Shown here: positions 4,456 to 20,002 of the stretch, piece after piece
Layout of the letters: every line of letters begins with the position of its first letter
Numbering within the stretch: position 1 is the first letter of the stretch
Source: Clostridiales bacterium
GTDB taxonomy: Bacteria > Bacillota > Clostridia > Oscillospirales > QAMX01
NCBI GenBank assembly: GCA_012800055.1
Contig: JAAZKA010000048.1
Span: forward strand, 1 to 44,864
Length of the DNA: 44,864 bases
Direction of reading: 5' to 3'
Notes under the pieces: generated by a model
Database searches by the model: none
Told to the model about the DNA's origin: nothing
What the model saw: only the letters and a program-made list of their open reading frames with translations
Program-made: the position numbers and the translations under genes

Positions 4456-5148
4456 ATGCTTGACCCACATAAATATACCGCGCTGCTGCTCGATGCCGAC
4501 GAGACGCTTTTTGACTTCCTTACAGCGGAGAGGCAGGCGTTCACGCAGCTCGTCGAGAGCTTTGGCTACCCATGCTCCGACGGGATGTACGCACGCTACC
4601 ATGAGGTCAACCGCGCATGTTGGAAGCGTCTGGAGCGTGGGGAGATAACGAAAGTATCGGTGCAGTTCGACCGCTTCACCGAGACCTTCCGTGAGTTCGG
4701 GTATGCCGTCGACCCCGTCGAGGCAAGCCGCCGTTATCGGGAGATGCTTGCGGACTGCTCGATCCTGTTGCCCGGCGCACTCGACACGGTGCGCGCACTT
4801 TCAGGATGCTTCCGGCTCGTCATCGTTACCAACGGCGTGCTGACGACCCAGACCAAGCGCTTTCACGCATCCGCGATCAGACCATACATCGCGGCGATGC
4901 ATGTCTCCGACGAGGTAGGTTACCCGAAGCCCGACCGCCGCTTCTTCGACACAGTGCTCACACGAGAGGGTCTGTGCGCGGACGAATGCCTGGTCGTAGG
5001 CGACTCGCTGACGAGCGACATCCTCGGCGCATACAACGCCGGAATCGACGCCGTGTGGGTTGACGCGTCGCGCAGCGGAACTCCCACAACTGCGCTTGCG
5101 TCCATCGCATCGATCACCGAACTGCCGGGACTTCTGGGGCTTTTATAA
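4456..5148 (+). CDS. HAD-family hydrolase, YjjG/YfnB-type nucleotidase
   Basis: LLLDADETLFDF (motif I), VTNGVLTTQTKRF (II), GYPKPDRRFF (III), VVGDSLTSDILGAYNAG (IV). Confidence 0.85.
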   Translation: MLDPHKYTALLLDADETLFDFLTAERQAFTQLVESFGYPCSDGMYARYHEVNRACWKRLERGEITKVSVQFDRFTETFREFGYAVDPVEASRRYREMLADCSILLPGALDTVRALSGCFRLVIVTNGVLTTQTKRFHASAIRPYIAAMHVSDEVGYPKPDRRFFDTVLTREGLCADECLVVGDSLTSDILGAYNAGIDAVWVDASRSGTPTTALASIASITELPGLLGLL

Positions 5149-5871
5149 TTGTGTGCGCCGCCACGCAAGCCCCATCTCGATATCATTGAGCAGCACGCCG
5201 TCCGCGCGCAGGTTCGCGATCGCGTCAAGGTCCTGCGCATTGCCGTCCATCGTCGACAGCGCGCCGTCTCCCTTGCGCCACATCATGATCCAGACCTCGC
5301 CGCCGCAGACCTCGCGCACTGTGTCCGGCGTTATTTCACCGTCGCCTGCGGGGAAAGGCAGCCATTGCTGCCACAGCCGGATGATGCCCGCGCCGCCCGC
5401 CGAGAACTCACGGTACGGTTCCCTGCTCGGCATGAACGCAAGGATGCGCTCCCTGGGCAGTTCCCGGCGCATCTCCGCGAGCGATTCCAATGACTGCACG
5501 CCCGCGATGATCGGGAAGCGTGAGCCGCCCACCTTCTTCGCGAACGCCTCACCCAACGGATGCTTGATGTGCAGCAGCACCGGCGCGGTGCCCGTATAGT
5601 CCGCGAGCAGTCCGTCGAACGTCAGCAGGTCGCGCCCTTTGGCTTTGAGCGCCGCGCGCATCTCGTCCTCCGTGACGCTGTCGACGGCGGCATCCACTCC
5701 GGCAAGTCTCTGCAGCGTGTTGTCGTGGAAGATCACGAGGTGACCGTCGCGCGTCGGCTGCACGTCGCACTCCACCGCATCCGCACCGAGCGATGACGCG
5801 TAATGAAGACTCTCGAGCGTGTTCTCCGGGCGTACCTTAGATGCGCCTCTGTGGGCAATCAGTTTCAGCAT
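5143..5871 (-). CDS. Glycerophosphodiester phosphodiesterase family protein
   Basis: MLKLIAHRGASKVRPENTLESLHYASSLGADAVECDVQPTRDGHLVIFHDNTLQRLAG: GDPD HRG/ExD/HD signature. Confidence 0.9.
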   Translation of the reverse strand: MLKLIAHRGASKVRPENTLESLHYASSLGADAVECDVQPTRDGHLVIFHDNTLQRLAGVDAAVDSVTEDEMRAALKAKGRDLLTFDGLLADYTGTAPVLLHIKHPLGEAFAKKVGGSRFPIIAGVQSLESLAEMRRELPRERILAFMPSREPYREFSAGGAGIIRLWQQWLPFPAGDGEITPDTVREVCGGEVWIMMWRKGDGALSTMDGNAQDLDAIANLRADGVLLNDIEMGLAWRRTQL

Positions 5872-5936
5872 ATCGGTTTATACCGCCTTTTCTGTATTTT
5901 ATCCGTTTTTTCGGAATGATGAAGGAGGAAACGGCC

Positions 5937-7259
5937 ATGTCCGCAGCGGCATTGGTATTGGGCGGCGGAGGATCGCGCGGGGCGTATGAAATCGGCGTCT
6001 GGCGTGCGCTGCGGGAGCGCGGGGAACACTTCGATATTGTCACCGGCACGAGCGTCGGGGCAATCAACGGCGCGATGATCGCACAGGGTGACTTCGACCT
6101 TGCGGAAAAGATATGGAGCGAGATCACCACCGACATGGTGCTGTCGATGGAGGACGTGCCGGGGGATAAGACGCCGCGCGACCGGCTTATCCGGCTCGGT
6201 ATCTTAGCGCGGGAGATTGCGGTGAAAGGCGGAGCAGATTCGGAGCCGTTGCGGCGGCTGCTGGAGTCCGTGCTCGATGAGGATCGCGTGCGGGCGTCGG
6301 AAATGCGTTTCGGCCTGGTGACCGTGCGTCTGCCGGACTTCAAACCCTGTATGCTGCTCATCGACGAGATTCCGCAGGGGCAGCTCATCGACTACGTTCT
6401 GGCGTCGAGCGCCTTCTTTCCGGCAATGCGCAAGCAGCTGATCGGCGACACCGCCTATATCGACGGCGGATATTTCGACAACCTGCCGGTGGCTCTGGCG
6501 ATCAGGGCGGGAGCGGAGCGCGCGGTCGTGGTGGATATCCACGGCGCCGGGATGCCGCACCGCGCGAAGGAACTCGGGAAACTTGAACTGCATGTCATCT
6601 CATCGGGATGGAATCTGGGGTCGATACTGCTGTTCGACGCGGAGAATGCGCGGCGCAATATGACACTCGGATACCTCGACGCGATGAAGTCCTACGGCGT
6701 CTACGGCGGCGGGCTGTACGCGTTCGAGCCCGGCGAGGCGGAAAAGCTCGAGGGACATGTCGGGGAGATATACACACGGCTTCATGAGCTGCTGCCGGCG
6801 TCGCTGATGCGTCCGGTTTTACGCTTCCGCATGCTGCGTGCGCTGCGGGCACAGTACCGCGGGATGGGCGTACCTCCGCAGCTTAAGAAAGACCCGCGCA
6901 CGCCGGACACGCTACCGGTCGGTCTGATGCTCGCGGCCGCAGAAAATGCCGGACGCGTCTTCAATCTCCCGCCGACGAAGGTCTACACGGCGCGGGAGTT
7001 CGAGGACGCCGTGGTACGGGCATGCGGCGCGGTAAAGCCGGTGGACATGACGGTGCTGGAGAGCATCCTGACGGAGAAACTGAGCGCACCGCAGCGGATG
7101 GAACGGCTGCTTGAGGAAGCTGACCGCATCGACCGCGCGCATGTGGCGTGGTATCTGCTGAGGCTGCTGGACGCGGAGAATACGGCGCTGCTGTCGGCGG
7201 CTGTCGCGCTGCCGGGAGAAATGCTCGCCGCGCTCTACGTGAAGGGGCTGCGTACGTGA
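5937..7259 (+). CDS. Patatin-like phospholipase family protein
   Basis: MSAAALVLGGGGSRGAYEIGVWRAL (oxyanion glycine loop), GTSVGAING (GxSxG), YIDGGYFDNLPV (DGG). Start chosen at the ATG 3' of AAGGAGG, not the tracked 5841 start. Confidence 0.9.
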   Translation: MSAAALVLGGGGSRGAYEIGVWRALRERGEHFDIVTGTSVGAINGAMIAQGDFDLAEKIWSEITTDMVLSMEDVPGDKTPRDRLIRLGILAREIAVKGGADSEPLRRLLESVLDEDRVRASEMRFGLVTVRLPDFKPCMLLIDEIPQGQLIDYVLASSAFFPAMRKQLIGDTAYIDGGYFDNLPVALAIRAGAERAVVVDIHGAGMPHRAKELGKLELHVISSGWNLGSILLFDAENARRNMTLGYLDAMKSYGVYGGGLYAFEPGEAEKLEGHVGEIYTRLHELLPASLMRPVLRFRMLRALRAQYRGMGVPPQLKKDPRTPDTLPVGLMLAAAENAGRVFNLPPTKVYTAREFEDAVVRACGAVKPVDMTVLESILTEKLSAPQRMERLLEEADRIDRAHVAWYLLRLLDAENTALLSAAVALPGEMLAALYVKGLRT

Positions 7260-12733: not shown

Positions 12734-13600
12734 TCAGACGCGGCGCACCGGACGGCCCTTGTTCAGCTTTACCGTGTTGTCATAGCGCCGGGCGGGGAAG
12801 ATGCGCTCGAAAATGATCATTGGCGCGATCTTCGTCAGATTGTCGAACGTATTCTGGTCGGTCACCGTCCACGCGCAGGCGAGAGCTCCGAAAGCCGTCA
12901 CGCAGCGTTTGAAGTTCCGGTTGCCGAAGAATTCATAGTCATAGGCGATGAACTGCGGACGCCCGATGAAGTTGAACAGCAGGTTCTCGAGCATGAACTT
13001 TTTCAGCGCGGACATTTTCACATCGCGCAGATTCGTCGCGAGCTGTCCGCGCATGACCTGCTTTGCATGCCGCCGGAACCAGCCGAGCACACGCGGGTCA
13101 AACGACTCGATGCAGTACGCGCCCTGATAGTTCGAAAGCAGCGCATATGTCTTCTCACACAGCTGGTTGAGGTCATTCCCGGGCTTCAGCTCGACGATCA
13201 GCGGTACGGTCCCGCGGATGACGTCGAGCGCCTGGGCAAAGGTGGGGATGAAGTGTTCGGAGCCGGAGACACGCATTTTTGTCAGCTGCGCGGCGGTCAG
13301 CTCGTCTACGCGGCGGTCTATGCGGACAAGGCGCGTAAGGGTTTCGTCATGGAAGACGATGACCTCGCCGTCGGATGACAGGCGTACGTCCAGCTCGATG
13401 CCGTAGCCGTGGCGCGCGGCGACCTCGAAGGCCTCAAGGGTGTTTTCCGGGACGTTGTTGCGCGCGGAGTGCAGGCCTCTGTGGGCGTAGGCACGGCCGG
13501 AGAGCTTCTCTGCGGTGTCCGGATCAATCTTCCCCGGATAGAGAAGATACAGATAAATCCCCAAAATGACGGCTGCCGCGAGAATGATGTACCAAAGCAT
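12734..13600 (-). CDS. Glycerophosphodiester phosphodiesterase, membrane-anchored
   Basis: MLWYIILAAAVILGIYLYLLYP (TM) then AYAHRGLHSARNNVPENTLEAFEVAARHGYGIELDVRLSSDGEVIVFHDETLTRL. Start set to the ATG after AGGGGA. Confidence 0.88.
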   Translation of the reverse strand: MLWYIILAAAVILGIYLYLLYPGKIDPDTAEKLSGRAYAHRGLHSARNNVPENTLEAFEVAARHGYGIELDVRLSSDGEVIVFHDETLTRLVRIDRRVDELTAAQLTKMRVSGSEHFIPTFAQALDVIRGTVPLIVELKPGNDLNQLCEKTYALLSNYQGAYCIESFDPRVLGWFRRHAKQVMRGQLATNLRDVKMSALKKFMLENLLFNFIGRPQFIAYDYEFFGNRNFKRCVTAFGALACAWTVTDQNTFDNLTKIAPMIIFERIFPARRYDNTVKLNKGRPVRRV

Positions 13601-13646
13601 CGAAAATCGTCCCCTCATTCTGATCTCGTACACAGAGTATATACGC

Positions 13647-13675
13647 AGTATATAACAAAAATGCTCATTCGTCAA
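13647..13675 (-). promoter_or_regulatory. Promoter of GDPD-DUF4838-GH2 operon
   Basis: Reverse strand TTGACG-17 nt-TATACT. Confidence 0.7.
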
Positions 13676-17947: not shown

Positions 17948-17976
17948 TTGCAATCCGGGGAGAACCGTTGTATAAT
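17948..17976 (+). promoter_or_regulatory. Promoter of SPT-like/SDR operon
   Basis: TTGCAA-17 nt-TATAAT. Confidence 0.75.
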
Positions 17977-18035
17977 AGATTCCAGAGCTGTGTGCGCATT
18001 CGCCACACTCCAAAACCAACACGGGGGGAAAAGCT

Positions 18036-19214
18036 ATGTCTCTTTTCACCAAATGCGTCGAGTTTACGACTGCACGCGACGTCAAAGCATCCGGTCTCTA
18101 CCCGTACTTCCATCTTCTCGAATCCCGGCAGGACACAACGGTCATCATGGAGGGCAAGCGCCGCATCATGCTCGGCTCCAACAACTACCTCGGCCTGACC
18201 GTCCATCCGGAAGTCATCGCGGCGTCGGTCGAAGCAACCGAACGCTACGGTACCGGCTGCTCCGGCTCCCGCTTTCTCAACGGCACCCTCGATTTGCACA
18301 TCGCCCTCGAACAGGAACTGGCGAAGTTCATGCGCGCTGAGAGTGCCATTACCTTTTCCACCGGTTTCCAGTCCAACCTTGCCATCATCTCCGCGCTCGT
18401 CGACCGCCACGACACGATCCTCTGCGACCGTGAGAACCACGCGTCCATCTATGACGGCTGCAGACTTTCCTTTGGCAAGACCTTGCGCTACCGTCACTCC
18501 GATATGGCCGACCTTGAGCGTCAGCTCAAGGAGCTGCCCTACGACGCGGGCAAGCTCATCATCACCGACGGCGTGTTCAGCATGAGCGGCGAAATTGCAA
18601 AGCTGCCGGACATCGTGACGCTCGCGAAGAAGTACAACGCTGCCGTCATGGTCGACGACGCCCACGGCTTCGGCGTCATCGGAGAGGGCGGACGCGGCAC
18701 CGCATCGTTTTTCCGCCTCGAAAACGAAGTCGACATCACGATGAGCACGTTCTCGAAGTCGTTGGCATCGCTCGGCGGATTCATGGTCGCAAAGGAATAC
18801 ATCGTTGACTACGTGCGCCACACGAGCCGGCCCTTTATCTTCAGCGCGTCGATTCCGCCGTCCGCTGCGGCTTCCGCACTTGCCGCTTTAAAGATCATCG
18901 AACGCGAGCCGGAACGCGTTGCGCGTCTGAAGACGTTGGCTTGCTATCTGCGAAATGGTCTGACCGAACGCGGCATCGCGCTCAAGGACAACGGCGGCGC
19001 CGATACGCCGATCGTACCGTTCTATACCTACGAAGTCGAGAAGACGCTCGTCAAGGCCAAGGAGCTTTTCGAAGCGGGCGTTTATGTCAATCCGGTGCTG
19101 CCGCCCGCAGCACCCGCCGGAGAGTGCCTGCTGCGTTCGAGCCTGATGGCGACGCATACCGAGACGCTGCTCGACGAGGCAATGGACATCATCCAAAAGG
19201 TAATGAAGCAATGA
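18036..19214 (+). CDS. Alpha-oxoamine synthase family PLP enzyme, serine palmitoyltransferase-like
   Basis: GLYPYFHLLESRQDTTVIMEGKRRIMLGSNNYLGL...RYGTGCSGSRFLNGTLDLHIALEQELAKFM...DGVFSMSGEIAKLPDIVTLAKKYNAAVMVDDAHGFGVIGEGGRG...MSTFSKSLASLGGFM (PLP Lys). The TFSKSLASLGG and GxYPYF motifs look like bacterial SPT rather than BioF/KBL. Confidence 0.75.
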   Translation: MSLFTKCVEFTTARDVKASGLYPYFHLLESRQDTTVIMEGKRRIMLGSNNYLGLTVHPEVIAASVEATERYGTGCSGSRFLNGTLDLHIALEQELAKFMRAESAITFSTGFQSNLAIISALVDRHDTILCDRENHASIYDGCRLSFGKTLRYRHSDMADLERQLKELPYDAGKLIITDGVFSMSGEIAKLPDIVTLAKKYNAAVMVDDAHGFGVIGEGGRGTASFFRLENEVDITMSTFSKSLASLGGFMVAKEYIVDYVRHTSRPFIFSASIPPSAAASALAALKIIEREPERVARLKTLACYLRNGLTERGIALKDNGGADTPIVPFYTYEVEKTLVKAKELFEAGVYVNPVLPPAAPAGECLLRSSLMATHTETLLDEAMDIIQKVMKQ

Positions 19215-20002
19215 CCCGCGCGGCAGACAATGTCCGCGTGGCGGTCATCACGGGGACGTCGTCGGGCATCGGACAGGCGTGCGCGCGGAAGTTCCTCAGC
19301 GAGGGCTTCCGCGTGTATGGACTGTCCCGGCGTCCCGGCGAGGGCATCCACATCGCCTGCGATGTCTCGGACGCGGAGAGCGTGAAAGCTGCGTTCCGGG
19401 AGATTGCCGCGCGGGAGGATTCCATCGACGTGCTTGTATGCAACGCGGGAATGGGCATCTCCGGCGCGGCGGCGTACGCGAAGCATTCGGATATCATGCG
19501 CATCTTCGGTGTCAACTGCATGGGTGTATTCTCCTGCGTGCGGGAAGCCTTGCCGCTTTTGCGCAAGGGCGCCCACATCGTGACGGTCAGCTCGGCGGCG
19601 GCGTACTTCGCCATCCCGTTCCAGGCGTACTACTCCGCGACGAAGTCTGCCGTGACCGCATATACCCAGGCGCTGCGGACGGAGCTTGCGGTGCTGGGGA
19701 TACGCGTCTGCTGCGTGATGCCCGGCGACGTGCATACCGGCTTCACCGACGCACGCCGCAAATCCGATGCCGGTGCCGAGGTTTATGGTCAGCGCATCGG
19801 GAAGAGCATCGCCGCAATGGAGAAGGATGAGCGCACCGGCATGTCCCCCGATCATGTCGCGGACGTGATTTATCGGCGCGCACAGCAGAAGAATCCGCCG
19901 CCTCTGACAACAGTCGGCGCGCTCTATAAGGTGTTCATCTTCCTCAACCGCCTGTTCCCGACGCGGCTGGTCGAATTCATCATCGCCCACATGTATTCCT
20001 GA
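19211..20002 (+). CDS. Short-chain dehydrogenase/reductase, candidate 3-ketosphinganine reductase
   Basis: [24 protein letters not shown] (TGxxxGIG), [39 protein letters not shown] (S-YxxxK); C-terminal hydrophobic stretch. Overlaps the upstream gene by ATGA. Confidence 0.8.

Follow-up and report, generated by a model that had tools for sequence, protein, structure and literature searches.

Sphingolipids are fats best known from animals, plants and Bacteroides; the Clostridia are, to our knowledge, not usually counted among the groups that make them. The locus described here raises the question of whether a clostridial gene pair nevertheless carries out the first part of sphingolipid synthesis. 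An earlier note on this DNA had proposed as much for an alpha-oxoamine synthase translationally coupled to a short-chain dehydrogenase/reductase (SDR). The window, that is, the whole stretch of 44,864 nucleotides analysed, is one entire contig of a MAG from a gut-type member of the Clostridia, order Oscillospirales (2.14 Mb in 159 contigs; completeness 88.75%, contamination 0.92%). We find the pair to be real and well conserved and, as far as sequence can tell, it most likely represents known chemistry, namely sphingoid-base synthesis, in a new lineage and with a new gene arrangement. The genes and their putative expression signals are as follows:

17948–17976, forward strand: sigma-70-like promoter, TTGCAA-17-TATAAT (10 of 12 consensus matches)
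18023–18029, forward strand: Shine-Dalgarno-like GGGGGGA, 6 nt 5' of the synthase ATG (read from sequence)
18036–19214, forward strand: alpha-oxoamine synthase of serine palmitoyltransferase (SPT) type, 392 aa (NCBIfam, PDB matches, trees)
19195–19200, forward strand: Shine-Dalgarno-like AAAAGG for the SDR, within the SPT 3' end (read from sequence)
19211–20002, forward strand: SDR, 263 aa, KdsR-like 3-ketosphinganine reductase candidate (NCBIfam NF049977, predicted fold)

The reported overlap is indeed present as an ATGA at 19211–19214, in which the synthase stop (TGA, 19212–19214) shares bases with the SDR start (ATG, 19211–19213). Over the 3.6 kb scanned, chance alone would give 0.9 promoter-like sites of this kind. 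The gene that follows the SDR, after 16 bp, is metA (acetyl type; NF047918, 485.6 bits), and neither bio nor threonine-dehydrogenase genes adjoin the pair, in agreement with the earlier reading. Elsewhere in the window, unlinked to the pair, lie two glycerophosphodiester phosphodiesterase-like open reading frames and one for a patatin-like phospholipase (5143–5871, 5841–7259 and 12734–13675), named from recognisable motifs only.

The view that the synthase is an SPT rather than a BioF or KBL enzyme is upheld by family models, by the closest PDB structure and by phylogeny. Its top NCBIfam model is NF047600, SPT (CFB type), at 531 bits, some 138 bits ahead of the next best, with SPT beta (394), BioF (379), KBL (378), SPT alpha (327), ALAS (234) and CqsA (187 bits) ranked below. 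Because this score falls short of the model's cut-off of 640, itself set for Bacteroidota-type members, we label the protein SPT-type rather than a strict equivalog; the same model matched all 10 aligned homologues, with the best E-value. The nearest PDB protein is the Sphingobacterium multivorum SPT (3A2B/8GUH), to which the synthase is 50% identical over its full length (E 1.4e-123, 416 bits) and with which it shares the LNGT and TFSKSLASLGG motifs and every catalytic residue. These PLP and catalytic residues, N49, H135, D207, H210, K241 and R367 (N52, H138, D210, H213, K244 and R367 in the S. multivorum enzyme), are common to the wider superfamily and so are necessary, not sufficient, for an SPT. 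Together with A271, an SPT-type alanine 30 residues after the PLP lysine K241, they are invariant across the 10 aligned homologues. The predicted structure of the synthase (pLDDT 64) was too poor for use.

Two trees were built, a quick one of 143 proteins and a careful one of 46. In both, the synthase falls outside BioF/KBL and clusters with the verified SPTs of Sphingobacterium and Sphingomonas (two of the latter in the careful tree), and the careful tree splits this SPT side at 100/99 from a non-SPT side comprising E. coli KBL and BioF, Cupriavidus KBL and the Thermus BioF/KBL enzyme; ALAS, CqsA and SulA were compared with it by scores only. The trees further place the Firmicutes and Mollicutes SPTs in one clade (98/97), apart from those of Bacteroidota. 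The motifs from which a likeness to Bacteroides SPT had been argued (GLYPYF, GSNNYLGL, GTGCSGSRFLNGTLDLH and TFSKSLASLGGF) are all found in the 392-aa reading frame, and the grouping with SPTs stands; what does not stand is the notion that a Firmicute acquired a Bacteroides-type SPT, and recent transfer from Bacteroides is rejected because the Firmicutes clade stands apart in the tree. Unlike the Bacteroidota SPTs, then, this enzyme belongs to a widespread and separate Firmicutes/Mollicutes clade, scores below the NF047600 cut-off and has its gene coupled directly to that of a ketoreductase. A more distant SPT-like synthase, 48% identical, is encoded on Priestia megaterium plasmids (CP109762, locus L138, 6001–7215); in the careful tree it lies inside the SPT group and outside the Firmicutes clade, and its gene has those of a methyltransferase and an acyltransferase as neighbours, while annotation shows neither an SDR nor a ceramide synthase close by.

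SDRs form a promiscuous superfamily. Of 229 NCBIfam models that match the SDR, the best is NF049977 (3-ketodihydrosphingosine reductase KdsR) at 203 bits, followed by PRK06179 at 175; since 203 bits lies below the KdsR cut-off of 400, we term the protein KdsR-like, not KdsR. The KdsR model is matched by all 14 SPT-adjacent SDRs scanned, and a few such SDRs, for example those of loci L068 and L059, match neighbouring SDR models better. The glycine-rich TGTSSGIG at 14–21 (TGxxxGxG), N102 and the catalytic S128, Y141 and K145 are all present, the last three being invariant in 14 homologues. Like the Bacteroides KdsR (BT_0972), this is a classical SDR: it has the Gly-rich NAD(P) motif and YxxxK, and its C-terminal end matches too, the alignment reaching the model's last position; unlike it, the protein reaches only about half of the family cut-off and its gene overlaps that of SPT, whereas the locus tags of B. 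thetaiotaomicron spt (BT_0870) and kdsR lie ~100 genes apart. The predicted structure (pLDDT 93) finds its closest whole-length fold match in the NADP-dependent 17beta-HSD1 (TM 0.88). The hydrophobic C-terminus that had been thought to fit membrane association is only partly so: it is moderately hydrophobic (best 19-residue Kyte-Doolittle mean 1.47) and is modelled as two short helices, 237–248 and 251–262, and therefore the conserved end is probably amphipathic, with no evident transmembrane segment.

The strongest evidence in the case is the gene pairing. Strong SPT matches, defined by E <= 1e-100, occur in 53 of ~395 Oscillospirales genomes and in 49 of 391 Clostridia genomes, single-contig genomes among them; ~13% of the sampled Clostridia, about 1 in 8, carry an SPT of Firmicutes type. 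A related SDR adjoins SPT in 42 of the 53 SPT-positive Oscillospirales genomes (11/11 first relatives and 31/42 others, the window included), mostly directly downstream and overlapping or almost so. Of 94 Firmicutes-type loci, 71 have the SDR family close to SPT; the second most frequent neighbour family is found in 8, and the related SDR is the sole recurrent partner. With such counts the arrangement is not due to chance, and the proposed coupling of the synthase to a ketoreductase-type SDR is supported, KdsR being the best family match and the pair recurrent. A conserved larger operon is rejected, as flanking genes vary from genus to genus; selection therefore seems to keep SPT and SDR together.

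Some individual loci deserve separate mention. Two members of the window's own family (L036, 11012–12403; L037, 2142–3542) have an M20-type peptidase/amidohydrolase after the pair's SDR, a kind of enzyme that can act on N-acyl amides. The Firmicutes-type pair also occurs in two Paludibacteraceae (Bacteroidota) MAGs (L064, 5971–7999; L066, 5992–7977), by transfer or binning error. At one Oscillospirales locus (L200; genome G270, contig C25) the SPT is broken by two TGA codons beside an SDR that is still open, through either gene decay or an error of assembly.

The Firmicutes-like character ascribed to the host is supported by the contig's ArgS, whose three closest matches come from the MAG's own family (60–64%, against at most 54% outside it). 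Because of this affinity, and of the close SPT homologues in single-contig genomes, a contaminating contig or binning artefact is rejected. The named loci include some from gut, rumen and digester MAGs and also from the cultured Peloplasma aerotolerans (Acholeplasmataceae), and the patchy distribution suggests transfer or loss. Decades-old work described lipids of ceramide type in Acholeplasma, and this would be in keeping with the presence of Acholeplasmataceae in the SPT clade.

Whether a sphingoid base would go on to be N-acylated depends on a ceramide synthase. A double-GNAT protein is encoded 3' of SPT in Zixibacteria, Planctomycetota, Myxococcota, Aegiribacteria and Rubrobacter, in the last of which an NAD(P)-dependent oxidoreductase gene comes next, and in Roseomonas the family lies within a Caulobacter-like sphingolipid island together with an acyl carrier protein, an acyl-AMP ligase and LptF/G (for comparison, see PMC11324152). 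Because of this linkage to SPT in several phyla and of the Roseomonas island, we take the family, by synteny, as a candidate bCerS. The clostridial candidates form a distinct subclade, enriched with SPT: it is present in 15 of 53 SPT-positive as against 26 of 342 other Oscillospirales genomes (odds ratio 4.8, Fisher p 5.5e-5, uncorrected for kinship), in one of them (G332) 2 kb from SPT, and these same counts reject the double-GNAT protein as an obligate SPT partner. Peloplasma has a candidate as well, which makes N-acylation plausible in some members of the SPT-positive group. The window's MAG, 88.75% complete, has no match to the ceramide synthase candidate, the clostridial candidates being a separate subclade, and it is one of 6 among the 12 SPT-positive genomes of the relatives set without a detectable ceramide synthase. 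Like the Caulobacter-type ceramide pathway (Spt, AcpR, AasR, bCerS, CerR), the system starts from SPT, and a distant double-GNAT relative occurs in many SPT-positive Clostridia; unlike it, no dedicated ACP, acyl-ACP synthetase or CerR was found linked, and a KdsR-like SDR stands instead.

The double-GNAT protein (~375 aa, with no NCBIfam model) is encoded by ~10% of Oscillospirales genomes and frequently in the absence of SPT, as in family f10 (loci L130–L137 and L142–L161), and may on that account act outside sphingolipids too.

What was computed here comprises the open reading frames and their overlap, the clade, the residues, the recurrent pairing, and the lack of bioB and of above-cut-off bioA or tdh matches. 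From the clade, residues and gene pairing we infer that the two-gene unit quite likely makes a sphingoid long-chain base of the sphinganine type; the donor, acyl chain, product, step order and any head group belong to the predicted part of the scheme. In it, the synthase would condense L-serine with a long-chain acyl thioester, either acyl-CoA or, likelier in an anaerobic bacterium, acyl-ACP, to give 3-ketosphinganine by PLP chemistry, and the coupled SDR would use NAD(P)H to reduce this product, yielding a sphinganine-type base. The ATGA overlap is expected to couple translation of both genes and would keep levels of the reactive ketone intermediate down. In some relatives the double-GNAT enzyme would likely go on to N-acylate the base, giving a dihydroceramide. 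The step order would thus be that of eukaryotes and Bacteroides, in which 3-ketosphinganine is reduced to sphinganine (PMC9278070), and not the order proposed for Caulobacter, where N-acylation would precede reduction (PMC11087976). Against the sphingoid-base reading count the scores of both proteins, which lie below their curated equivalog cut-offs, the lack of a ceramide synthase candidate in the incomplete MAG, and the promiscuity of the SDR superfamily, in which some SPT-adjacent members fit other models better.

Three other explanations must be weighed against sphinganine synthesis. The synthase might use another amino acid (alanine, glycine, cysteate or other) to yield 1-deoxy, capnine-like or other amino-ketone lipids, the ketone of which the SDR would reduce. 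Few residues set the choice of donor in this fold, the Firmicutes clade lies apart from the verified SPTs, and no dedicated head-group genes are linked at the 94 Firmicutes-type loci; set against these points, verified serine-using enzymes occupy two separate branches of the same clade, and we judge a different donor unlikely. For cysteate in particular, the SulA/CFAT cysteate acyl-ACP transferases of sulfonolipid synthesis share fold and chemistry with the synthase, but they match it at only 229–230 bits, far below the 416 of the Sphingobacterium SPT, and they carry a lysine (Lys281 in the SulA active site) at the discriminating position where Spt has alanine (PMC9304779). The synthase has A271 there and, given also the weak scores, sulfonolipid synthesis is rejected.

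A true SPT could also be paired with an SDR that acts on some ketone other than free 3-ketosphinganine, for example a 3-keto-ceramide formed by prior N-acylation, as in the order proposed for Caulobacter (PMC11087976), or a ketoacyl chain. The sub-cut-off KdsR score would allow this, as would the fold match to 17beta-HSD1, another hydrophobic-ketone reductase. The best family is nonetheless KdsR, a classical SDR and not the NDUFA9-like CerR, and the six relatives-set genomes that lack a detectable ceramide synthase, this MAG among them, would have none to supply an acylated substrate, so that we hold such a substrate to be improbable. Least credible by a wide measure is the idea that the synthase serves biotin synthesis (BioF type) or threonine breakdown (KBL type) and that the SDR next to it is unrelated. 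BioF and KBL belong to the same superfamily, and their models do reach ~378 bits on the synthase; the best SPT model lies ~150 bits higher, however, and the careful tree excludes the synthase from the KBL/BioF/Thermus group. Searches of the whole MAG returned no match to bioB, only matches below the curated cut-offs for bioA and tdh, and no second alpha-oxoamine synthase; across Clostridia, moreover, the partner is an SDR, not bio genes. A BioF/KBL identity is therefore rejected, on the tree and on the missing pathway genes.

With sphinganine synthesis as the preferred reading, we found no report in an open library of papers of this gene pair in Clostridia, or of SPT work in Clostridia or Oscillospirales, and the terms Firmicutes, Bacillota and Clostridi are absent from the main text of the Black Sea paper. 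We offer, tentatively and with more doubt than confidence, the broader proposal of a separate Firmicutes/Mollicutes sphingoid-base lineage, with its own SPT clade and coupled ketoreductase, and spread widely among gut and digester Clostridia; some of this lineage would operate without the known ceramide synthase and would end in non-ceramide or otherwise novel sphingoid lipids. Gut-made sphingolipids, which have been linked to host immunity and lipid metabolism, are attributed chiefly to Bacteroidota. The coupled gene pair offers a simple handle for spotting producers, and the reading can be tested in Peloplasma aerotolerans, a cultured species with SPT, SDR and a candidate acyltransferase. 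If about 1 in 8 Clostridia are able to produce sphingoid bases, both the sphingolipid pools of the gut and any survey limited to Bacteroides spt would have to be re-read.
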